A DNA stretch of 64,000 bases, taken from assembly GCF_014643535.1 (NCBI RefSeq), contig NZ_BMJQ01000027.1:1-64000 (forward strand), read 5' to 3'. A model generated the notes under the pieces. That model saw only the letters and a program-made list of their open reading frames with translations. It was not told where the DNA came from and made no database searches. The stretch is from Aliidongia dinghuensis (lineage in GTDB: Bacteria > Pseudomonadota > Alphaproteobacteria > ATCC43930 > CGMCC-115725). The stretch's first letter is position 1; the number at the start of each line of letters is the position of its first letter. This document shows, one piece after another, positions 13,663-23,343 of the stretch. Position numbers and translations under genes: made by a program.

Positions 13663-15042
13663 CTAATCGTCGGGTGCCGCGGGAAGGGTGACCTCGACGA
13701 GCAGGCCCGACCCGAGCGGTGAGTCGGCGAGCGTCACCGTGCCGTCGTAGCGCCCGGCGATCTCCCGCACGATCGACAGGCCGAGACCGCTGCCGTCGCC
13801 GTCGGTGCCGAGCATCCGGTAGAACCGGTCGAACACGCGTTCCCGCTCGTGCAGTGGGATGCCCGGTCCTTGATCGGCAACGCGCAGGATGCCGACGCCG
13901 TCACCGGCCGCGACCGTGGCGTTGATGGCGCCGCCGGGCGGGCTGTAGCGCAGCGCATTGTCGACGATGTTCATGACGAGCTCGTGCAGCATGGCACGAT
14001 TCGCCAGCACCCGGACGGGTGTGGCGTCGAAGCTGAGCTCGATGTTCCGGTCGAGCGCCCGATCCGCCACGGTCTCGAGCACGTGCCGCGCCGTCTGGGC
14101 GAGATCGACCGGCTCGCGCACGATCGAGAGCGCGCCGGGCTCGATCTTGGCGAGCATCAGCAGCTGGTTGGTCAGATGAACCATCTGGCCGACGCTCTCG
14201 TCGACGGCCGCGAGCGACTTGTTCTTCTCGTCCTGGTCGGTCGTGCTGAGGCCGTAGAACACCTGCGTCTTCAGCAGGGTAAGCGGCGTGCGCAGCTGGT
14301 GGGCGGCGTCGGCGATGAAGCGCCGCTGTACGGCGATCTGGTTGCGCACGCGCTCGACCGAATGGTTGAGCGCGGCCACCAGCGGGCGCAGCTCCTTCTG
14401 CACCAGGTCGGTCGCGATCGGGTCGAGCGTGTCCGGCGCACGCGCCGCGATCTCCTCGCTCAACCGCACGAGCGGCGCCAGGCCGCGATTGAGGCCGAAC
14501 CAGGCGAGCGCCGCGGCGATGACGACGAGGCCCAGCTGACGCTCCGTCTCCGCCACCCACAGGTCGGCGATCATGCGCCGATGACCGCGCAGGGTCTGTC
14601 CGACGATGACGAGCGCAAATTGCCGGTCGCTGTCGCCGATCAGCGGCTGGCTGAGCGCCACGGCCCGGATCGGCTGGCCGCGGAACATGGCGTCGAAATA
14701 GCGCGGCTCAAAGGCCTCCGTCGCGTTCACCGGTCCGGGCACGTCGGAATAGCCGGCGAGCAGCGTGCCGTCAGCATTGGCGACGCGATAGACCACCCGG
14801 TCCTGGAAGCCCGACGCGAACATCTCGAGCGCCGAGGGCGGCACGATGGCCTCGACCAGGCCGTCGACGACCTTGATCTGCTCGGCGATGGTGTGCGCGG
14901 AGCCGACAAGCGTGCGGTCCGTGACGATGCCGGCGACGAGGCGGGCGTTCGAATAGCTCTGCCACGCGTTGAACAGCACCAGGACGAAGAGCGGTGCCAG
15001 GATCCAACGCAGCAGCTGCAAGTGCAGGCTGCTGCTCAGCAT
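13663..15042 (-). CDS. TctE-like sensor histidine kinase
   Basis: 459 residues. There is an N-terminal membrane anchor (LLRWILAPLFVLVLF), a periplasmic 2CSK_N-type region typical of TctE kinases, a second membrane segment (LGLVVIAAALAWFGL), then HisKA with H248 in ADAAHQLRTPL. HATPase_c follows with an N box, G1 (ADQGPGIP) and G2 (GSGLGLSIV). Its ATG lies inside the response-regulator gene (7-nt overlap), so the two are coupled. In known systems TctDE responds to tricarboxylates and controls their porin and carrier; a porin and a 2-hydroxycarboxylate carrier lie about 1.5 kb away here. Ligand specificity is inference. Confidence 0.93.
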   Translation of the reverse strand: MLSSSLHLQLLRWILAPLFVLVLFNAWQSYSNARLVAGIVTDRTLVGSAHTIAEQIKVVDGLVEAIVPPSALEMFASGFQDRVVYRVANADGTLLAGYSDVPGPVNATEAFEPRYFDAMFRGQPIRAVALSQPLIGDSDRQFALVIVGQTLRGHRRMIADLWVAETERQLGLVVIAAALAWFGLNRGLAPLVRLSEEIAARAPDTLDPIATDLVQKELRPLVAALNHSVERVRNQIAVQRRFIADAAHQLRTPLTLLKTQVFYGLSTTDQDEKNKSLAAVDESVGQMVHLTNQLLMLAKIEPGALSIVREPVDLAQTARHVLETVADRALDRNIELSFDATPVRVLANRAMLHELVMNIVDNALRYSPPGGAINATVAAGDGVGILRVADQGPGIPLHERERVFDRFYRMLGTDGDGSGLGLSIVREIAGRYDGTVTLADSPLGSGLLVEVTLPAAPDD

Positions 15043-15707
15043 GGATCCTGGCGCAAGGCGTAGCCCAAGCCCCGGAAAGTGACGATGCCGACGCCGCTGC
15101 CTTCGAGCTTCTTGCGCACCCGGTGGACGTAGATCTCGATCGAATTGACGTTGCCGCTGTCGCCGAAGCCGAAGACGCTTTCCATCAGGCTGGTCTTGCT
15201 GACCGTGCCGCCCTCTTTGAGGATCAGGCTCTCCAGCACGACATGCTCGCGGGGGGTGAGCACGAGATCGGCGCCGGCCAGGAAGAATTGCCCGCTGTTG
15301 CGGTCGAGCGAGAGGGCGCCGTAGCGGGTGGTCGGGCTCAGCGGTTCGTGCCGGCGGCGCAGGCGGGCGCGGATGCGGGCTTCCAGCTCCTCGATGTTGA
15401 ACGGTTTCGCGAGATAGTCGTCGGCCCCGCCATCGAGCGCCGAGACGCGGCTCGGCACGCTGTCGTCCGCCGTCAGCACGAGCACCGGCGTCGTGCTGCC
15501 GCGCGCCCTGAGGCGCGCCAGCACCTCGGTCCCGCTCAGCGCCGGCAGGGCCAGGTCGAGGATGACGAGCGAATAGTCCTGGGTCTTGAGGGCGTAGTCC
15601 GCGTCCTCGCCGTCATAGACGCAGTCGATCACATATTTGCTGCGGCGCAGCAGCATGGCGATCCAGTCGGACAGTTTCCGATTATCCTCGACAATCAGAA
15701 TCCGCAT
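15036..15707 (-). CDS. OmpR/TctD-family response regulator
   Basis: 223 residues. The receiver domain has the acidic pocket (VEDN), phospho-acceptor D51 (VILDLALPALSG) and Lys in YLAKPF. The C-terminal winged helix has the GLGYALR end of the OmpR family. It starts after AGAGGGACGAA. It is the first gene of the pair with the TctE-like kinase and divergent, across the LuxR gene, from the porin and carrier genes, its most likely targets. Confidence 0.93.
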   Translation of the reverse strand: MRILIVEDNRKLSDWIAMLLRRSKYVIDCVYDGEDADYALKTQDYSLVILDLALPALSGTEVLARLRARGSTTPVLVLTADDSVPSRVSALDGGADDYLAKPFNIEELEARIRARLRRRHEPLSPTTRYGALSLDRNSGQFFLAGADLVLTPREHVVLESLILKEGGTVSKTSLMESVFGFGDSGNVNSIEIYVHRVRKKLEGSGVGIVTFRGLGYALRQDPC

Positions 15708-15820
15708 TTCGTCCCTCTCGGACCGCGCTTCACGGCACGGCCGCCGTCGTCTGCCCGCGACGGTACACCGCCCATCGCCGGAACGCGACGCTCACGACGG
15801 GCCGGGGCTTTGGTCACGGC

Positions 15821-16177
15821 TCAGGCGAGCAGCCGGAACAGCTCGTGCTGAGAGGAGATGCCGAGCCGCTCATACGCCCGCTTCCGGTATGTCACGACGC
15901 TGCTCTTCTTGATCTCGAGCTCGAGCGCGATCCCTTCGGCGGTCATGCCGGCGAGCGCACGGGTGCAGACGTCGATTTCGCGGCCCGTGAGACCGCGGTC
16001 CAAGGCCAGGAGCCGTTGCCGGTAGAAGCGGAGCGATGTGTCCTTGGAGCGCGCGGTCGCCTCCGCGTCGCCCGAGATTGCCTGTCCTCCCGGGGATGCC
16101 TGTCCCAAGGTCGGCGCGATCTGGAGCGCCAGCCGGAGCACTTCCCGCGCGATCGACTGAGACAAGTGCTCGTACAT
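15821..16177 (-). CDS. Small LuxR-type HTH regulator
   Basis: 118 residues. The last 60 form a LuxR/GerE helix-turn-helix (LTGREIDVCTRALAGMTAEG, KKSSVVTYRKRAYERLGI). The N-terminal part is too short for a receiver or PAS domain and shows no known fold. The start has GGGAGTGG upstream. It sits between the two-component pair and the porin promoter region and is transcribed away from the porin, so porin control is plausible but unproven. Confidence 0.8.
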   Translation of the reverse strand: MYEHLSQSIAREVLRLALQIAPTLGQASPGGQAISGDAEATARSKDTSLRFYRQRLLALDRGLTGREIDVCTRALAGMTAEGIALELEIKKSSVVTYRKRAYERLGISSQHELFRLLA

Positions 16178-16232
16178 CCGCCACTCCCTAAATTTTTATA
16201 TTTCTCCGGCCTCGGGCCGGCTTCACCTCGCT

Positions 16233-16398
16233 GAAATCTAGCACCGCCAAACTTTCATTTAGCTTTCAGGGCAGAACTTCGCTTCCCCATTCGGGGGGAC
16301 AGCCTGTCCCCCTTGAAATGGTCAGATTACGTCGCAGTGAAATGCGACCATTCACTCGAAATCTAGCATCGCACCTTGGCTGGAAAACTCAGTTTTCC
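16233..16398. promoter_or_regulatory. Cluster of dyads and direct repeats upstream of the porin gene
   Basis: Within 166 bp there are three near-perfect palindromes: GGGGGACAG-C-CTGTCCCCC (16294-16312), GTCGCA-N6-TGCGAC (16331-16348) and GGAAAACT-C-AGTTTTCC (16382-16398). A direct repeat GAAATCTAGCAYCGC occurs at 16233-16247 and 16358-16372, 125 bp apart. The region is AT-richer than its surroundings and lies between divergent genes. It looks like a multi-site control region; the direct repeats are candidate binding sites for the nearby OmpR-type or LuxR-type regulator. Some dyads could instead act as mRNA hairpins. Confidence 0.6.
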
Positions 16399-16439
16399 GG
16401 GGCGGGGCCTATTTTTCAAAAATCATGGGGGAGAGATAC

Positions 16440-17993
16440 ATGCCTAAGCGCGGAATATCAGCAGTTCTACTTGCATCTACTGCCGCTGCTCTATTGTTCT
16501 CCGGCGCCGCCCGGGCGGACGACATGGCAGATCTCAAGGCGCAGATCAAAGCCTTGAGCGATCGTCTGAGCCAGATCGAGGCGGAGCGCGCCGCCGCGGC
16601 TAAAGTGCCGGCGGTCCAGACGACGACCGGCGCGCCGAAGCAGACCTCGGTCCCGGCGACGCTCCAGAAGGACCAGCAAGGCAACACGCCCGGCGGCACG
16701 ACGGCGGTCGTCGACACCTCGGTGCCGGCGACCCTGCAGAAGGACACGGGCGGCAATGCGATCGGGATCCTGAACAACCCGGTCATGCTCTACGACGACA
16801 AGAACACGAGCGTGCGTCTCTACGGCCTCATCGAGGCGACGCTCGGCGTCGCGAACAACCAGAACAACAAGGGCGATCTGGCGGTCGGCTATCAGACGTC
16901 CTGGTTCAGCGGCAACCGCCTGGGCTTCGACGCTTTCCACGCCCTGAGCTTGGGCGACCAGATCGGCCTGCCGGGCCTGAAGGTGATCTCGAAGCTCGAA
17001 ACTGAGTTCGAATCGCCGACCGGCAATGCCGACACGCCCGGCGTCATCTTCAATCGCGACGCCTGGGTCGGTTTCGAATCGGATGATCTCGGCAAGATCA
17101 CATTCGGTCGCCAGAACTCGCTGACCCGCGATTTCACCCAGAACTGGGGCGATGCCTACGGCACGCCGGAGGTCACCACGAAGGAAGGCGGCTACAGCAA
17201 CGTCAACAACTTCAAGCAGCTCATCTTCTACTCGGCGAGCTCGACCGGCACGCGCAACAACAGCGCCATCGAATGGAAGAAGCATCTGGGCGACCACTGG
17301 CTGGTCGGCCTCGGCTATGCGTTCGGTTCCGGCGGCGTCGGCGGCAGCGGCAACGGCGGGCCGGGCCAGTTCAACGCCGGCGGCGGCGGCACGCCTGGCC
17401 AGTTCTCGCTCGGCAGCAACGAGGCCGTGTCGATCGCCTACAACAATCTCGCCATCGGCCCCGGCAAGGCGAACTTCAACGTGAGCTACAACCGGGCCAA
17501 CAACCACGAAAACGTCAACCAGGCCGAGCTGGTCGGCGGCAACTATTCGATCGGGCCGTTCCGGTTGAACGCCGGCTACATCCACTACACGGGCGAGCAG
17601 GGCGAGCACAACAGCGCCGGAACGCGCACCGACAATGCCTGGACGGTCTCGGGCAGCTATTGGCCGGCGGCAAAGGTCGAGACGGACATCGGCTACGTCC
17701 GCATGGACGGTACGCATGCCGGCAATTGTGGCGGCAACACGCTGCTGCCCTTCCTGCAGGACGCAAGCTGCGTGACGCGCGCGACCGTCGCCAACGGCGG
17801 CAGGGGAACGGTGTTCGGCTCGGTCATCTTCCACGCCGACAAGCAGACCGATTTCTACCTGGCCTCGGACTACCTGAAGGTCGACGGCGGCTGGTCGGTC
17901 GGGGATGCCCAGGGCAACGTCGACGGCATCGGCCACGGCCGTGCGCATGACGACGAAGTCGAGGTCGCGACCGGCTTCCGCTTCAAGTTCTGA
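16440..17993 (+). CDS. Outer-membrane porin (general/OmpC-like, Porin_4 type)
   Basis: 517 residues. The start at 16440 (MPKRGISAV) is fixed by GGGGGAGAG upstream; an ATG 15 nt earlier would use the ribosome binding site as coding sequence. It has a signal peptide ending ARA-DD, then a short coiled coil (DLKAQIKALSDRLSQIEAER), a Pro/Thr-rich linker with a doubled SVPATLQKD motif, and a beta-barrel with YGLIEATLGV, GRQNSLTRD and alternating hydrophobic strands. The protein ends GFRFKF; the terminal Phe is the usual BAM signal. It is longer than most porins (about 350-400) because of the coiled coil, linker and Gly-rich loops. It probably admits the carboxylate taken up by the adjacent carrier. 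Confidence 0.92.
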   Translation: MPKRGISAVLLASTAAALLFSGAARADDMADLKAQIKALSDRLSQIEAERAAAAKVPAVQTTTGAPKQTSVPATLQKDQQGNTPGGTTAVVDTSVPATLQKDTGGNAIGILNNPVMLYDDKNTSVRLYGLIEATLGVANNQNNKGDLAVGYQTSWFSGNRLGFDAFHALSLGDQIGLPGLKVISKLETEFESPTGNADTPGVIFNRDAWVGFESDDLGKITFGRQNSLTRDFTQNWGDAYGTPEVTTKEGGYSNVNNFKQLIFYSASSTGTRNNSAIEWKKHLGDHWLVGLGYAFGSGGVGGSGNGGPGQFNAGGGGTPGQFSLGSNEAVSIAYNNLAIGPGKANFNVSYNRANNHENVNQAELVGGNYSIGPFRLNAGYIHYTGEQGEHNSAGTRTDNAWTVSGSYWPAAKVETDIGYVRMDGTHAGNCGGNTLLPFLQDASCVTRATVANGGRGTVFGSVIFHADKQTDFYLASDYLKVDGGWSVGDAQGNVDGIGHGRAHDDEVEVATGFRFKF

Positions 17994-18044
17994 GGCGCCT
18001 CAAGTTCTGAGTCGCCGGGGCGCGGCACCCGCCTGCGGCGAAAG

Positions 18045-18088
18045 CCGGGGATCCGGTCGGCCTCTCAGAGGTCGGTCCGGGTCCCCGG
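18045..18088 (+). terminator. Long imperfect hairpin between porin and carrier genes
   Basis: CCGGGGATCCGG...GCCTCT pairs with AGAGG...CCGGGTCCCCGG through about 20 bp with a bulge and wobbles and a minimal loop. It lies about 50 nt after the porin stop and 55 nt before the carrier start. No T run follows, so it may stabilise the porin mRNA or attenuate read-through rather than terminate. Confidence 0.4.
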
Positions 18089-18143
18089 TACCCGAACATT
18101 TGATGCGCTCATGCGCCCGCCCGCAGACTTCTGGAGATCCCTT

Positions 18144-19484
18144 ATGACCGACACCACGATCCGGCCTACAGCCAAACGGGCCGACGGCTTCTGGCCCTAC
18201 GGCTGGTGGAAGATCGTCGACTGGCAGATCGGTATCATCCCGCTGCCGATCTTCGTTCTCCTGTTCGGGCTCATCGCGGCCTTCGTCATGACCGGCAAGG
18301 TGCCGTCCGACATCCTGATGGCGATCGTGCTGCTCGCGATGGGCGGCTTTACCTGTGCCGAGCTCGGCAAGCGGCTGCCGCTGATCCGCCATGTCGGCGC
18401 GGCCGCCATCTTCGCGACCTTCATCCCGTCCTACCTGGCGTTCCGCCATGTGCTGCCGGATTCGATCCTGAGCTCGGTCACCGAGTTCACGAAGTTCAGC
18501 AATTTTCTCTATCTCTTCATCTCGTCGATCATCGTCGGCAGCATCCTCGGCATGGATCGCCATGTGCTGATCGCGGGATTCCTCAAGATCTTTGTGCCGC
18601 TGGCGCTGGGCTCGGTCGTGGCCGGCATCGTCGGCACGCTCGTCGGCACGGCCCTCGGCCTCGGCGCCTATCACAGCTTCTTCTTCGTCGTAGTGCCGAT
18701 CATGGCCGGCGGCGTCGGCGAGGGGGCGATCCCGCTGTCGATCGGCTATGCCGCGATCCTGCATTCACCGCAGGGCGAACTATTCGCCCAGGTGCTGCCG
18801 CCGGTGATGCTCGGCAGCCTGACCGCGATCCTGCTCTCGGGCGGCCTCAATTTCCTCGGCAAGCGCTACCCGCATCTGACCGGCGAGGGGCGGCTGCAAC
18901 CGGGCACGCATCCGGAGATCGAGCCGGGTGAGGAGCCTGCGGGCGCCGTGCCGGATGTGACCACCATCGCGGCGGCCGGGGTGACGGCGGTGACGCTCTA
19001 TCTGATCGGCGTCTTGTCGCAGCGCCTTTGGGATTTCCCGGCGCCGGTGACCATGTTGTTCATCGCCGTGCTCTTGAAGCTCACGCGCTCTGTCTCGCCG
19101 CGCCTGCAGAACGGCGCCTTCATCGTCTACAAGTTCTTCTCGACGGCCGTCACATATCCGCTGCTGTTCGCGATCGGCGTCGCGATGACGCCTTGGGACA
19201 AGCTCGTCGCCTCCTTCACGCTGCCCTACATCCTGACGATCATCGCAACCGTCGCGACGCTGATGGCGACCGGCTTCTTCGTGGCGCGGCTGCTCAAGAT
19301 GTATCCGATCGATGTGGCGATCGTGAATGCCTGCCACAGCGGGCAGGGCGGCACGGGCGACGTCGCGATCCTGACCGCAGCCAATCGTATGCAACTGATG
19401 CCGTTCGCCCAGATCGCGACGCGCATCGGCGGCGCCATCACCGTGACGCTGACCCTGATCGCCCTCGCACGCTTCTTTACCTGA
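18144..19484 (+). CDS. 2-hydroxycarboxylate transporter (CitS/MaeN-like, CCS family)
   Basis: 446 residues, matching the CCS family length. It has about eleven hydrophobic segments and the two family GGxG re-entrant motifs, AGGVGEGAIPLS in the first half and GQGGTGDVAIL in the second. The start was placed at ATG 18144, with GGAG upstream. These secondary carriers move citrate, malate or related 2-hydroxycarboxylates with Na+ or H+. The neighbourhood (TctDE-like sensor, porin, two citrate synthases) supports citrate or malate. The family is uncommon in alphaproteobacteria as far as I know. Confidence 0.9.
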   Translation: MTDTTIRPTAKRADGFWPYGWWKIVDWQIGIIPLPIFVLLFGLIAAFVMTGKVPSDILMAIVLLAMGGFTCAELGKRLPLIRHVGAAAIFATFIPSYLAFRHVLPDSILSSVTEFTKFSNFLYLFISSIIVGSILGMDRHVLIAGFLKIFVPLALGSVVAGIVGTLVGTALGLGAYHSFFFVVVPIMAGGVGEGAIPLSIGYAAILHSPQGELFAQVLPPVMLGSLTAILLSGGLNFLGKRYPHLTGEGRLQPGTHPEIEPGEEPAGAVPDVTTIAAAGVTAVTLYLIGVLSQRLWDFPAPVTMLFIAVLLKLTRSVSPRLQNGAFIVYKFFSTAVTYPLLFAIGVAMTPWDKLVASFTLPYILTIIATVATLMATGFFVARLLKMYPIDVAIVNACHSGQGGTGDVAILTAANRMQLMPFAQIATRIGGAITVTLTLIALARFFT

Positions 19485-19496
19485 CGAACCGGAGCC

Positions 19497-19550
19497 GGGC
19501 CCGGCAATACTCCAATGAGACGATGCTCAGACGGAGCAATTGCCGCGCCC
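19497..19550 (+). terminator. Stem-loop after the carrier gene
   Basis: GGGCCCGGCAAT (19497-19508) pairs with ATTGCCGCGCCC (19539-19550), 11 of 12 positions, with a 30-nt loop, starting 13 nt after the stop. No T tract; weak terminator candidate. Confidence 0.35.
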
Positions 19551-19603
19551 GGCCCCATGGGTCGCCCTTTGACGGCATCGGCCCGACCGCCCATAGTCGG
19601 GCC

Positions 19604-20053
19604 ATGAACCGCGATTATCCCTATTCGCCGATGGTCGGCATCCTCTCGGTCGTCCGCCGCGGCGACCGGTTCCTGCTCGTGCGCCGCGCCAAGCAACCCA
19701 ATCTCGGACGCTGGGGCTTCCCGGGCGGCGTCCAGGAGCTGGGCGAGACCGTGATCGACGGCGCCCGCCGCGAGCTCCTCGAAGAGACTGGCCTCTCATC
19801 CGGCGGCGGGCGCACGACCACGGCGCTCGACGCGATCGAGCACGATGAGGCGGGTCGCATCCGCTACCACTACACGCTGGTCGTGGTCCTCATGACGGAC
19901 GTCGCGGGCGAGCCGGTCGCCGGCGACGATGCGGCGGAGGTCGGCTGGTTCGGCCTCGATGACGTCGAACGCATCCCGACCATCGCGGCCGTGCGGCCGC
20001 TGATGGTCGAGATCTTGGGTCAGGCCGCGGCCTTGGGCATCGGCCCGACATAG
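19604..20053 (+). CDS. Nudix hydrolase
   Basis: 149 residues with an intact Nudix box: GGVQELGETVIDGARREL then LEETGL (G-x5-E-x7-REL-x-EE-x-G). This family cleaves nucleoside-diphosphate-linked compounds in a Mg-dependent way. The N-terminal strand (PMVGILSVVRRGDRFLLVRR) resembles ADP-ribose pyrophosphatase/NUDIX-CoA types, but the substrate is not readable. The ATG at 19604 was chosen because the frame upstream lies within the carrier gene. Its 3' end overlaps the convergent citrate synthase gene by 34 nt. Confidence 0.88.
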   Translation: MNRDYPYSPMVGILSVVRRGDRFLLVRRAKQPNLGRWGFPGGVQELGETVIDGARRELLEETGLSSGGGRTTTALDAIEHDEAGRIRYHYTLVVVLMTDVAGEPVAGDDAAEVGWFGLDDVERIPTIAAVRPLMVEILGQAAALGIGPT

Positions 20054-21108
20054 GCCGATTGCGGGCGGATGATCCGGCCGCCCCGCGTCTGCTCCATGAT
20101 ATGCGCGGTCCAGCCGACAACCCGGCCGATCGCGAAGATCGGCGTGAACAGGTCGCGCGGCAGTTCCAAGGCCTCCAGCACGAGGGCGGTATAGAACTCG
20201 ACATTGGTGTCGAGCCGGCGGCCGGGCTTGAGCCGGGCCAGGACCCGGAGTGCCCCGGCCTCGACGGCCTCGGCGAAGCGGATGCGGTTCGATCCGGCGC
20301 GCAAGGACAGCGCCACCGTCTTCAGCACGTCGGCGCGCGGATCGCGCACCCGATAGACGCGATGGCCGAAGCCCATCAGCCGGTCACCGTCGGAGATGGC
20401 ATGCTCGAGCCAGGGCTCGATCTGATCCTCGTAGCCGATCGCGTCCAGCATGTCGAGCACCGGGCCCGGCGCGCCGCCGTGCAGCGGCCCCTTGAGCGCG
20501 CAGAGCGCCGCCACGACCGACGAGAAGACGCCGGCGCGGGTCGACGCTACGACGCGCGCCGTGAAGGTCGAGGCGTTGAGCCCGTGGTCGGCGACCGTCA
20601 CCAGATAGGTCTCGAGGGCGGCGACATGATCGGGCGTGGCCGGCATTCCGCGCAGCATGCGCAGGAAATCCGCGGCCTGGGGTAGCGCCGGGTCGGGCGG
20701 TACCGCTGCCGCATCCTGCCGAGCGCGGGCGAGGGCGGCGACGAACACCGGCATGGCAGCTGTCGCGAGCAGATGATGGGGCAACGGGTACGTGTCCGGC
20801 AACGCCGCGAGCAGCAGCCGCAAGCCTTCAGTCACGGTCAGGCCCGCCGCCGCCGGCAGCAGCGGCCGCCCGATCTCGAACGCCGCGACCCGGGCCTCGC
20901 CGAGAGCGCGGGAGATCGTCTCCGGGGCTGCGGCCTCGTCTGTGAAGCCGTGCCACAGCAAGGCTGCGACCGCCTCCTGGCTCACATGCCCTGCCAATTC
21001 CTCGATGTCGTGGCCCCGGAAGATCAGGCGCCCCTGTTCGCCGTCCACATGGCTCAGCACGGTCTCCGCCGCGATGATGCCGTCCAAACCGTCCGATGCT
21101 GCCGTCAT
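20020..21108 (-). CDS. Citrate synthase-family protein (catalytic Asp replaced by Glu)
   Basis: 362 residues, GGAGA 8 nt before the ATG. It has the citrate synthase landmarks LIFRGHDIEEL, KGPLHGGA with H210, GFGHRVYR with H249, and NVEFYT. The residue at the position of the catalytic Asp is E304; the spacing H249 to E304 (55 residues) equals that of pig enzyme H320 to D375, so the substitution is real. The enzyme would condense acetyl-CoA or propionyl-CoA with oxaloacetate, but may have altered activity or act with the divergent paralogue. It is shorter than gltA-type enzymes (about 430). The genome probably has another housekeeping gltA. Confidence 0.85.
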   Translation of the reverse strand: MTAASDGLDGIIAAETVLSHVDGEQGRLIFRGHDIEELAGHVSQEAVAALLWHGFTDEAAAPETISRALGEARVAAFEIGRPLLPAAAGLTVTEGLRLLLAALPDTYPLPHHLLATAAMPVFVAALARARQDAAAVPPDPALPQAADFLRMLRGMPATPDHVAALETYLVTVADHGLNASTFTARVVASTRAGVFSSVVAALCALKGPLHGGAPGPVLDMLDAIGYEDQIEPWLEHAISDGDRLMGFGHRVYRVRDPRADVLKTVALSLRAGSNRIRFAEAVEAGALRVLARLKPGRRLDTNVEFYTALVLEALELPRDLFTPIFAIGRVVGWTAHIMEQTRGGRIIRPQSAYVGPMPKAAA

Positions 21109-21161
21109 GGCGAATCTCCAAATTGCGCACTCGCCAGACATCGGATCGGTGGTTAATATCG

Positions 21162-21187
21162 TCAATATTGATTCAATACATCAATAT
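21162..21187. promoter_or_regulatory. TCAATA-rich operator between the two citrate synthase genes
   Basis: Three direct TCAATA hexamers (21162-21167, 21173-21178, 21181-21186) overlap a perfect inverted repeat ATATTGAT-N7-ATCAATAT (21165-21187). The patch is an AT island in very GC-rich DNA and touches the ATG at 21188. It is a natural target for the DNA-binding domain of the flanking citrate synthase fusion, giving autoregulation; this is inference. Confidence 0.6.
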
Positions 21188-22384
21188 ATGGAGATCGCGT
21201 TGCCGGCCGGAGATCTGATCGATGCCGCCGAGGCGACGGCGCTGCTGGGCGTCGGGCGGGCGACGCTCTATGCCTATGTCAGCCGCGGCCAGATCCGGGC
21301 GGAGCCGGACCCGGCCGACCCACGGCGCCGGCTCTATCGCCGGGTCGACATCGAGGCACTGAAGACGCGCAAGGCGCGCGGCCGCCGGCCTGAGACGGTG
21401 GCGGAGACGACGCTCGACTGGGGTCTGCCGGTGCTCGAATCGGGCATCACCCTGATCGCTGACGGGCGGCTTCATTATCGCGGGCGGGATGCGACGGCGC
21501 TCGCCGGCACGGCGACGCTCGAGGCGACCGCGCGGCTGCTATGGGACTGCGGTGCAACGGACCCGTTCGATCGGCCGGCGCCGCCGATGCCGGCGGCCTG
21601 GCCGGCCGTCCTGCCGCACCTCACGGCGCTGACGCCAATCGAGCGGGCCGCAGCCCTGCTGGCGCTGACGCCGCCGTCCTTGCCGACCACCGGTCGCGCG
21701 GCAGCGCGGCTGTGGCCCGAGGCCTCGGAGTTGCTGCGCCTGGTCGCGGCCGCCGCGATCGGCCGGGCGCCGTCGGACCAGCCCATTCATCAGGTACTGG
21801 CCGAGGCCTGGGGGCTCGATGCGGCGGGGGCGGACCGGCTCAGGGCGGCGCTGGTGCTGTCGGCCGACCATGAATTGAACACCTCGGCCTTCACCATGCG
21901 GTGTGTCGCCTCGACCGGCGCCTCGCTGCCGGCAGCGCTCCTGGGCGGGCTTGCCGCCCTCTCCGGGCCGCGCCACGGCGGCATGACGGCGCAGGTCGAG
22001 GTGCTGTTCGAGGCGCTCGCGCGCGACGGCGATGCGGAGCGGCTCGTTGCCGGCCGGCTCGCGCGCGGCGAGGGGGTGCCGGGGTTCGGCCATCCGCTCT
22101 ATCCGGCGGGTGATCCGCGCGGTGCGGCCCTGCTGGCGCTTGCGGCGCCGGATGCGCGTGCCGAGGCTTTGGTGCGCGCCGTGGCCGACCTCGCCGGCCA
22201 GGCGCCGACGATCGACGTCGGGCTCGTCGCCCTCAGCCGTGGACTGGTTCTGCCGGCAGGTGCTGCGATTGCCCTGTTCGCGATCGGCCGCACCGCCGGC
22301 TGGCTCGCCCATGCGCTGGAGCAGGTCGGCGAGGGCCGCCTGATCCGGCCGCGGGCGCGCTATGTCGGCCCGCTACCGAACTGA
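21188..22384 (+). CDS. Citrate synthase-family protein with N-terminal helix-turn-helix domain
   Basis: 398 residues. Residues about 10-62 form a MerR/excisionase-type HTH (IDAAEATALLGVGRATLYAY, DPRRRLYRRVDIEALK). The rest is a citrate synthase-like domain with GPRHGG (H263), GFGHPLY (H302) and a candidate Asp at 343 (TIDVGL). H302 to D343 is only 41 residues, shorter than in canonical enzymes, and RVYR is PLYP, so activity is uncertain. ATG 21188 abuts the operator and has no ribosome binding site; leaderless translation, or TTG 21200 with GGAG upstream, are alternatives. It is divergent from the first citrate synthase gene. HTH-fused citrate synthases are known from genome annotation, but to my knowledge their role is not established. 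Confidence 0.85.
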   Translation: MEIALPAGDLIDAAEATALLGVGRATLYAYVSRGQIRAEPDPADPRRRLYRRVDIEALKTRKARGRRPETVAETTLDWGLPVLESGITLIADGRLHYRGRDATALAGTATLEATARLLWDCGATDPFDRPAPPMPAAWPAVLPHLTALTPIERAAALLALTPPSLPTTGRAAARLWPEASELLRLVAAAAIGRAPSDQPIHQVLAEAWGLDAAGADRLRAALVLSADHELNTSAFTMRCVASTGASLPAALLGGLAALSGPRHGGMTAQVEVLFEALARDGDAERLVAGRLARGEGVPGFGHPLYPAGDPRGAALLALAAPDARAEALVRAVADLAGQAPTIDVGLVALSRGLVLPAGAAIALFAIGRTAGWLAHALEQVGEGRLIRPRARYVGPLPN

Positions 22385-23232
22385 CCGCCGGACTGCTGAA
22401 CCGCGCGTGCGAACTGGACCGGCGTGATGCCGAAGGCGCCCTTGAAGCGCCGATTGAGGTGGCTCTGGTCGACGAATCCTGCTGCGGCTGCGACTTCCGC
22501 CGCCGGCTCGCCTGCGGCCAGCAGCCGTTTCGCTTCCGCCAGCCGGAGCCGCAGCTGATAGGCGTGCGGCGGCAGGCCGAAGCGGCGATGGAACTGGCGG
22601 CACAGCTCGTAGCGGCTCATGCTGGCGAGGGCCGCGAGTTCCGCGGTCGCGACCTCCGTCGCTGCGTCGGCGTGCAGCCGCTCGCGCACCCGGTCGAGCG
22701 CCCGGTCGTGGCGGCCTGCCGCGCGCGGCTCGGTGCCGAGGCCGCCATGGGCCGCGAGCCGCCGGATCATGGCGCTGAAGGCAGCGTCGCGCTCGAGGCG
22801 GGACGACGATGTGGTGAGGAGCGCGTGCGTGCGGGCGACGAGCAGGCCGGCGGTCGGATCGGCGATGAGCGGGGCGGCAAAGAACGGCAGCGGGCCGGGC
22901 CGCTCGCGCGCATCCTCCAGCACGGCGCGGACGGCTGCGGTCTCGATATAGAGCATGCGATAGGCGAAGCCCGCGTCGTCGCCGGCGTGGCCGTCGTGTG
23001 GCTCGTCCGGGTTGAACGCCATGACCATGCCCGCCGTGCTGGCATGGGCGCCGCCGCGGCAGCGGAAGGCCTGGACGCCCCAGTCGGTGACGCCCAGCGC
23101 ATAGCCGTCATGGGCGTGGCGTTCGTAGACATGGCGGCGCATGCGGGCGCGCAACAGCTCGACGCCCGGTTCGGGCGCGGTCGCATATTCGGTCCAATCG
23201 GCGGCGAGGTCTCGGGGCATGCCAAGTCCCAT
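22360..23232 (-). CDS. AraC-family transcriptional regulator
   Basis: About 290 residues. The C-terminal pair of HTH motifs is clear (ASMSRYELCRQFHRRFG and AAAAGFVDQSHLNRRFKGAF). The N-terminal half is a cupin-like AraC ligand domain (HAHDGYALGVTDWG, NPDEPHDGHAG). Starts at 23232 or 23220 both fit; the upstream frame is low quality. Its end overlaps the HTH-citrate synthase gene by 25 nt, tail to tail. It is divergent from the DUF2000 gene, its most likely target. Confidence 0.88.
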   Translation of the reverse strand: MGLGMPRDLAADWTEYATAPEPGVELLRARMRRHVYERHAHDGYALGVTDWGVQAFRCRGGAHASTAGMVMAFNPDEPHDGHAGDDAGFAYRMLYIETAAVRAVLEDARERPGPLPFFAAPLIADPTAGLLVARTHALLTTSSSRLERDAAFSAMIRRLAAHGGLGTEPRAAGRHDRALDRVRERLHADAATEVATAELAALASMSRYELCRQFHRRFGLPPHAYQLRLRLAEAKRLLAAGEPAAEVAAAAGFVDQSHLNRRFKGAFGITPVQFARAVQQSGGQFGSGPT

Positions 23233-23263
23233 GGCGGGTTCCGGGTCCCATGGCGGGTCCCGG
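23227..23263. repeat. Short tandem duplication at the AraC gene start
   Basis: TCCCATGGCGGGTTCCGGG (23227-23245) is followed by TCCCATGGCGGGTCCCGG (23246-23263). It duplicates the ATG context of the AraC gene, so two in-frame start regions exist. Confidence 0.7.
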
Positions 23264-23343
23264 CCGGCAACCCGGTACAAGCGGGCAAGCGGGGCTTGAG
23301 GATAACATCCTCGTCGGATCATCCAAGAAGGACGACGACGGGC

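Follow-up and report, generated by a model that had tools for sequence, protein, structure and literature searches.

A citrate synthase fold fused to a winged helix-turn-helix as a probable local transcription regulator in Aliidongia dinghuensis and other Pseudomonadota

Transcription regulators that combine a DNA-binding domain with an enzyme fold are represented by MocR/GabR, in which a GntR-type winged helix-turn-helix (HTH) is fused to an aminotransferase fold. In Bacillus subtilis, the minor citrate synthase gene citA is accompanied by a divergently encoded regulator of the LysR type, CitR. In Caulobacter crescentus, CitB and CitC (CCNA_03757/CCNA_03758) are citrate synthase homologues with adjacent locus numbers, of which CitB is reported to complement an E. 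coli gltA mutant and CitC is not (PMC7083601). The locus considered here lies at 20020-22384 of a window of 64,000 nucleotides of Aliidongia dinghuensis (Alphaproteobacteria; contig NZ_BMJQ01000027.1, positions 1 to 64,000 of the forward strand, assembly GCF_014643535.1), where the gene of a CitA-type citrate synthase, P0002, and that of an HTH–citrate synthase fusion, P0001, diverge from a 79-bp gap; the original prediction had claimed this pair and gap, and its coordinates were recovered unchanged. P0001 is probably a local autoregulating transcription factor, in which a citrate synthase fold with a kept oxaloacetate/citrate pocket would serve as the sensor.

The fusion protein P0001 (398 aa; 21188..22384, forward strand), a proposed transcription regulator, contains an HTH_17/MerR-like winged HTH at residues 11-61 (21218..21370, forward strand), which is assigned by PF12728, the structural model and the alignment, and a citrate synthase domain at residues 78-389 (21419..22354, forward strand), which is assigned by PF00285 and the structure match. 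HTH_17 is matched at 31.7 bits and PF00285 at 181.4 bits (cutoff 27 for both), and apart from these two and the weak MerR models PF13411 (16.1 bits, cutoff 21.6) and PF00376 (12.7 bits, cutoff 28.2), the Pfam content of P0001 includes nothing else. The score of 152.6 bits against NF009005/PRK12350 falls under the cutoff of 332, and P0001 is thus not of the CitA type. The AlphaFold model (mean predicted local distance difference test score 91) reveals a winged HTH, arranged as helix-helix-strand-strand-helix over residues 13-64, and a full citrate synthase fold, while residues 68-81, which link the two, are modelled poorly. The top Foldseek match of the model is M. tuberculosis CitA 8gll (E 3.8e-15, template modelling score by target 0.74); VIA-align gives a Z of 35.0 for 1IXE (320 residues, root-mean-square deviation 2.8) and of 32.8 for 8GI7. 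In an alignment of 56 rows, the HTH residues L27, Y28, S32, R33 and Y50 do not vary.

For comparison, 110 relatives were fetched, 30 from the class sample and 80 from named genomes, of which 107 distinct relatives with an assignable start were used (L035, L092 and L116 were dropped); these loci are related, so that counts among them are not independent events. Unless P0001 or P0002 is named, residue numbers follow E. coli citrate synthase, in which His264, His305, Asp362 and further positions have catalytic and pocket roles. In its own numbering, P0001 carries His228, His263, His302, Asp343, Arg368 and Arg387 at the conserved pocket positions. All 107 fusions have the equivalents of E. coli His264, Arg314, Asp362, Arg387 and Arg407, while 106 have that of His226 and 105 that of His305. 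The shortened catalytic spacing that had been noticed in the fusion is real, amounting to 41-48 residues between His305 and Asp362 in the 107 fusions versus 53-60 in 39 full-length partners, with 51 in PrpC-like proteins and 57 in the GltA-like protein of the same genome; however, His, His and Asp are all present, and no catalytic residue has been lost. At the fourth position after His305, Lys or Arg is found in all 39 partners and in the GltA-like protein, Thr in 43 of 43 PrpC-like proteins, and in the fusions mainly Pro (97/107), with Arg in two.

Since the catalytic residues persist, the main rival is a trigger enzyme, i.e., a fusion that would still be an active (methyl)citrate-synthase-like enzyme, would also bind DNA and would set the regulatory state through its turnover. 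The retention of the catalytic His264 and Asp362 throughout the 107 fusions, together with that of the other residues listed above, is as compatible with an active enzyme as with a sensor, and the whole citrate synthase fold is predicted for P0001; nor is the missing basic residue after His305 a sign of lost activity, because PrpC-like proteins share its absence. On the other side, the distance from His305 to Asp362 falls 5-19 residues short of that in the CitA partners, and CitC of strain NA1000, which was matched to the fusion, as CitB was to the partner, by identity and adjacency and is hence only an apparent orthologue, is reported to fail in gltA complementation (PMC7083601), which argues against plain citrate synthase activity, albeit in one host and for one reaction. 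We regard a trigger enzyme as a doubtful though serious account and retain the sensor as the preferred one.

The DNA site that such a regulator would bind is proposed at 21161..21185 (no strand assigned), on the basis of motif conservation, approximately 50 bp from the P0002 start and immediately 5' of the P0001 start. It comprises the palindrome TCAATATTGA within 21161-21172 and a third half-site, ATCAAT at 21180-21185, its TCAA being offset by 19 bp from the first TCAA; within the divergent gap, TCAATATTGAT occupies 21162-21172. The GC content of the gap drops to 37% in a 60-bp window, compared with 60-80% on either side, and the AT island with TCAAT/ATTGA repeats that had been reported there is confirmed; related loci show the same arrangement, and the island is therefore more than chance. 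Upstream of the 107 fusion genes, the ATCAANNTTGAT core occurs without mismatch in 50 and with one mismatch in 47 (at most one in 97/107), whereas among 5350 dinucleotide shuffles 0.7% reach one mismatch and none reaches zero. A further TCAA lies exactly 19 bp from the first at 87 of the 107 loci and at 18-20 bp in 90. Six of the 17 exceptions (L009, L032, L044, L068, L091 and L099) have an upstream string that stops at the chosen start codon, 13-23 bases past the core start, and is thus too short to include a third half-site. A test on the phylum sample, in which 30 loci were fetched, left 26 after removal of three that had been seen previously and one (L157) identical to L087; 25 of the 26, many of which share the same few families, carry TCAANNTTGA-N9-11-TCAA near the start. 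The motif is retained where the divergent neighbour is prpB or a coenzyme A (CoA)-transferase gene.

Within genomes, the site is close to unique. The exact pattern TCAATMTTGATN{5,9}TCAAY has one match in the 7.37-Mb genome of A. dinghuensis, at window positions 21162-21185, and occurs in 35 of 289 class genomes, the reversed control giving none. In 21 of these 35 genomes the site stands beside a fusion gene, as established for 19 of the 30 fetched loci (one of the 19 being a fragment at a contig end) and for two more by coordinates; all but one of these 21 sites have a spacing of exactly 19 bp, compared with 5 of the 14 others. The 25 named fusion genomes include 20 with an exact site, holding 21 sites in total, of which 20 map to the fusion locus by coordinates. 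The 21st belongs to Caballeronia and is flanked on one side by a 2-hydroxyacid dehydrogenase gene and on the other by a divergent SDR-MFS-(short open reading frame) string leading to a second full-length fusion paralogue (261 bits), approximately 3 kb from the site (L147:2155-4188, L181:1022-2351); with this second paralogue and second motif, the catabolic targets may extend past citrate and propionate. By contrast, CitA-type genes in class-sample genomes that have no fusion show the motif in 0 of 5 cases, a control set confined to two genera and only 42-43% identical to P0002. The region upstream of the CitA-type gene of G162, a genome of this control set, weakly matches P0001 across a stop; no HTH signature was found in that stretch. 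Given this near-uniqueness at fusion loci and the absence from fusion-free CitA-type genes, the motif, as judged by pattern matching, follows the fusion gene and not citA. That both proteins are ordinary enzymes, with an HTH that binds no DNA and a site that belongs to another regulator or to a promoter, is very improbable: no experiment showing binding was found and the site does fall where the promoters of both genes probably lie, yet it is missing before all five fusion-free CitA-type genes of those two genera, is present with a prpB or CoA-transferase neighbour and has few or no copies in a genome besides the one at the fusion gene, so that another regulator would need to have accompanied the fusion gene through these lineages.

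Apart from the relatedness of the loci, the narrow control set and the kept catalytic groups, several results weigh against a fusion that regulates through this motif. For eleven fetched exact sites there is no fusion within approximately 1.5 kb, and three further sites, which were not fetched, belong to genomes in which no fusion was found. Conversely, the exact site was not found in 5 of the 25 named and 12 of the 33 class fusion genomes, several of which carry near variants, and one phylum-sample locus, L163, has a full fusion gene and no motif. A scan of 21060-21260 for sigma-70 promoters (16-18 bp spacers) and terminators found neither, the missing promoter being the adverse part, and no binding, ligand or expression data were found for any fusion member. 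L163 is also without a detected CitA, PrpB or CoA-transferase neighbour and may show the outcome of site loss. Operators of the MerR family sit inside promoters with a 19-20 bp spacer; a candidate MerR-like promoter with a 20-bp spacer, in which the third half-site would provide the -35 element, was seen by eye in some alphaproteobacterial gaps and is not claimed here. The DNA-binding half of the metabolite-sensing regulator proposed in the original prediction is well supported, by the invariant HTH and by a site that tracks the fusion, while its metabolite-sensing half is suggested by the conserved pocket.

The fusion occurs in 53 of 398 sampled Pseudomonadota genomes (phylum sample, E 1e-70 or better). 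The 44 fusions included in the tree form one clade on a long stem with a support of 100 by a quick method, the placement of this stem relative to GltA being unsure since long branches meet there. This phylogeny of the two proteins, which the original prediction had called for, separates the P0001 clade from the CitA-type clade with a support of 100. The divergent neighbour, defined for the 107 loci as the best similarity of an open reading frame starting within 450 bp upstream, is PrpB at 44 loci, a citrate synthase at 41 (of the CitA type except in L028), a family III CoA-transferase at 8, DinB at 4 and a methyltransferase-like protein at 2, with no assignment at 8; a citrate synthase homologue is next in 43 of the 44 loci with a PrpB neighbour. 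These families were confirmed for one representative of PrpB/PrpC, for two of three CoA-transferase query types and for one DinB, the methyltransferase-like label resting on similarity. In the class sample, a CitA-type gene is present in 22 of 33 fusion genomes versus 5 of 256 others (Fisher p ~2e-20, which ignores relatedness).

The partner, P0002 (362 aa; 20020..21108, reverse strand, start ATG 21108), is a CitA-type (PRK12350) citrate synthase, which matches PF00285 at 340.3 bits (cutoff 27) and NF009005/PRK12350 at 419.3 bits, above the NCBIfam cutoff of 332, and is 38.5% identical to B. subtilis CitA. Both catalytic His residues are present, and the Glu that had been pointed out in place of the catalytic Asp is indeed found at residue 304 (codon GAG, 20197..20199, reverse strand, located by alignment), where it aligns with the catalytic Asp of the GltA-like protein of its own genome. 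Every full-length partner but L028 (38 of 39) has this Glu, as do all five CitA-type genes without a fusion and, in printed alignments, the CitA proteins of B. subtilis (2C6X) and M. tuberculosis (8GMF). A single clade of 23 partners (support 98) groups in the tree with the B. subtilis and M. tuberculosis CitA (support 94). The replacement of Asp by Glu was considered as the mark of a new function and rejected, Glu being a trait of a known enzyme subfamily. Because it is common to the partners, the fusion-free CitA-type genes and both of these CitA proteins, and because CitB complements, the Glu of P0002 is, on the evidence of alignment, ordinary and compatible with activity; P0002 is most likely an ordinary enzyme, namely an active minor citrate synthase.

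That P0001 and P0002 combine into one citrate synthase, in which the HTH is merely left over, is hardly credible and, as the heteromeric option of the original prediction, is not supported as a general rule: citrate synthases are dimers, and 22 of the 27 class-sample genomes with a CitA gene also have the fusion, side by side in 21 of the 22, yet 66 of the 107 fusion loci have no assigned citrate synthase as divergent neighbour (58 another type, 8 no assignment), CitB alone complements gltA and the invariance of the HTH residues is unexpected of a leftover.

In the mechanism proposed for the regulatory fusion, the winged HTH of the MerR/HTH_17 type would bind the tripartite operator TCAANNTTGA-N9-TCAA in the divergent gap and thereby control the fusion's own gene and the divergent metabolic gene, the target being the minor CitA-type citrate synthase in the window and prpB(C) or a CoA-transferase gene elsewhere. 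The citrate synthase domain may dimerize the HTHs, so that P0001 would bind as a dimer or a higher form, and would sense a ligand in the pocket, presumably oxaloacetate, citrate, 2-methylcitrate or an acyl-CoA, whose presence is expected to alter binding. This proposed sensor domain keeps the oxaloacetate/citrate residues and both catalytic groups, has a trimmed small domain and is mostly devoid of the basic residue four positions after His305 that is present in GltA and CitA. The sign of regulation is a guess; repression of the fusion's own gene is suggested since the third half-site abuts its start codon. More broadly, it is an evenly balanced proposition that these proteins constitute a widespread factor family, in which a complete citrate synthase active site would read oxaloacetate and acyl-CoA, or the citrate or methylcitrate formed from them, and would switch a divergent citA, prpBC or CoA-transferase gene, with the tripartite operator remaining near-constant across alpha-, beta- and gammaproteobacteria while the targets are exchanged.

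The start of P0001 is uncertain; no ribosome-binding site was seen before ATG 21188, and an alternative TTG at 21200 has GGAG six bases upstream. An Rfam scan of 19500-22900 gave no RNA element at gathering score in the gap. A NUDIX hydrolase gene (19586-20053) converges on the CitA-type gene and overlaps its 3' end, and an AraC-type regulator gene (22360-23322, reverse strand) shares 25 bases with the 3' end of the fusion gene. Further upstream in the window, 13663-19484 encodes a TctD-like response regulator, a sensor kinase, a 522-aa protein that we label porin-like and for which neither Pfam nor NCBIfam gives a match, and a 2-hydroxycarboxylate (CitS-like) transporter (PF03390, 470.1 bits; TIGR00783, 447.7 bits, under the cutoff of 549); together these genes resemble a citrate or dicarboxylate uptake module. 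Citrate-transport genes as a conserved part of the system were rejected, because at a locus of the same genus (L148, 19.1 kb) only the pair and the NUDIX gene, which thus recurs beside it, were recognized. Elsewhere in the genome, PF00285 matches three places, on contigs C17, C37 and C3: the C17 protein is the one that we call GltA-like, the C37 protein falls among PrpC proteins in the tree, and the C3 frame (L005, L006), which we label citryl-CoA-lyase-like, has 293 aa matched in two pieces, with the Asp kept and several pocket neighbours changed.

If the regulatory reading is true, a fold of central metabolism now serves as a genetic sensor in about one in eight of the sampled Pseudomonadota genomes (53/398), in which the fusion probably passes as one more citrate synthase. 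It could then explain some of the extra citrate synthase homologues that do not complement, such as Caulobacter CitC, and would supply a sensor, ready for use, of citrate, methylcitrate or acyl-CoA; the defined DNA site makes CitC directly testable.

The Caulobacter pair is among the closest described systems. The partner encoded by C. vibrioides T5M6 (L098) shares 37% identity with B. subtilis CitA, the value also reported for CitB, and the fusion of this strain shares 34% over 187 residues, near the 32% reported for CitC (PMC7083601); the same motif lies between the two genes. CitC is described there as a citrate synthase homologue, and in the main text of that article the term 'helix-turn-helix' is absent and 'DNA-binding' appears once. 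In Xanthomonas citri, PrpR is a repressor bound upstream of prpB at GTTGCAA-N2-TTGCAAC (PMC12153269), and fusion genes of Lysobacteraceae likewise lie upstream of prpB. PrpR was rejected as a published member of the fusion family, since its binding site differs and its authors liken it to Salmonella PrpR (PMC12153269). M. tuberculosis CitA (8GLL and others) resembles P0001 as its top Foldseek match and is of the CitA type with Glu; however, it is an enzyme without an HTH, and VIA-align scores other citrate synthases slightly higher.

The B. subtilis citA-citR arrangement shares with this locus a minor CitA-type enzyme with Glu at the Asp site and a divergent regulator, although CitR is of the LysR type, whereas the regulator of the window would itself be built from a citrate synthase. 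A description of the citrate synthase fold as a regulator was not found in the open-access literature, subscription journals being outside the search. Enzyme folds as sensors of transcription factors are nevertheless a known kind, to which P0001 would be related by analogy: MocR/GabR has a GntR HTH and an aminotransferase fold with no citrate synthase domain, and P0001 has neither of its two parts, yet in both a winged HTH is joined to an enzyme fold that keeps its ligand pocket, as the sensor in MocR/GabR and putatively so in P0001, and the fusion gene has a conserved DNA site at its own locus, as would be expected of a transcription factor of this kind.

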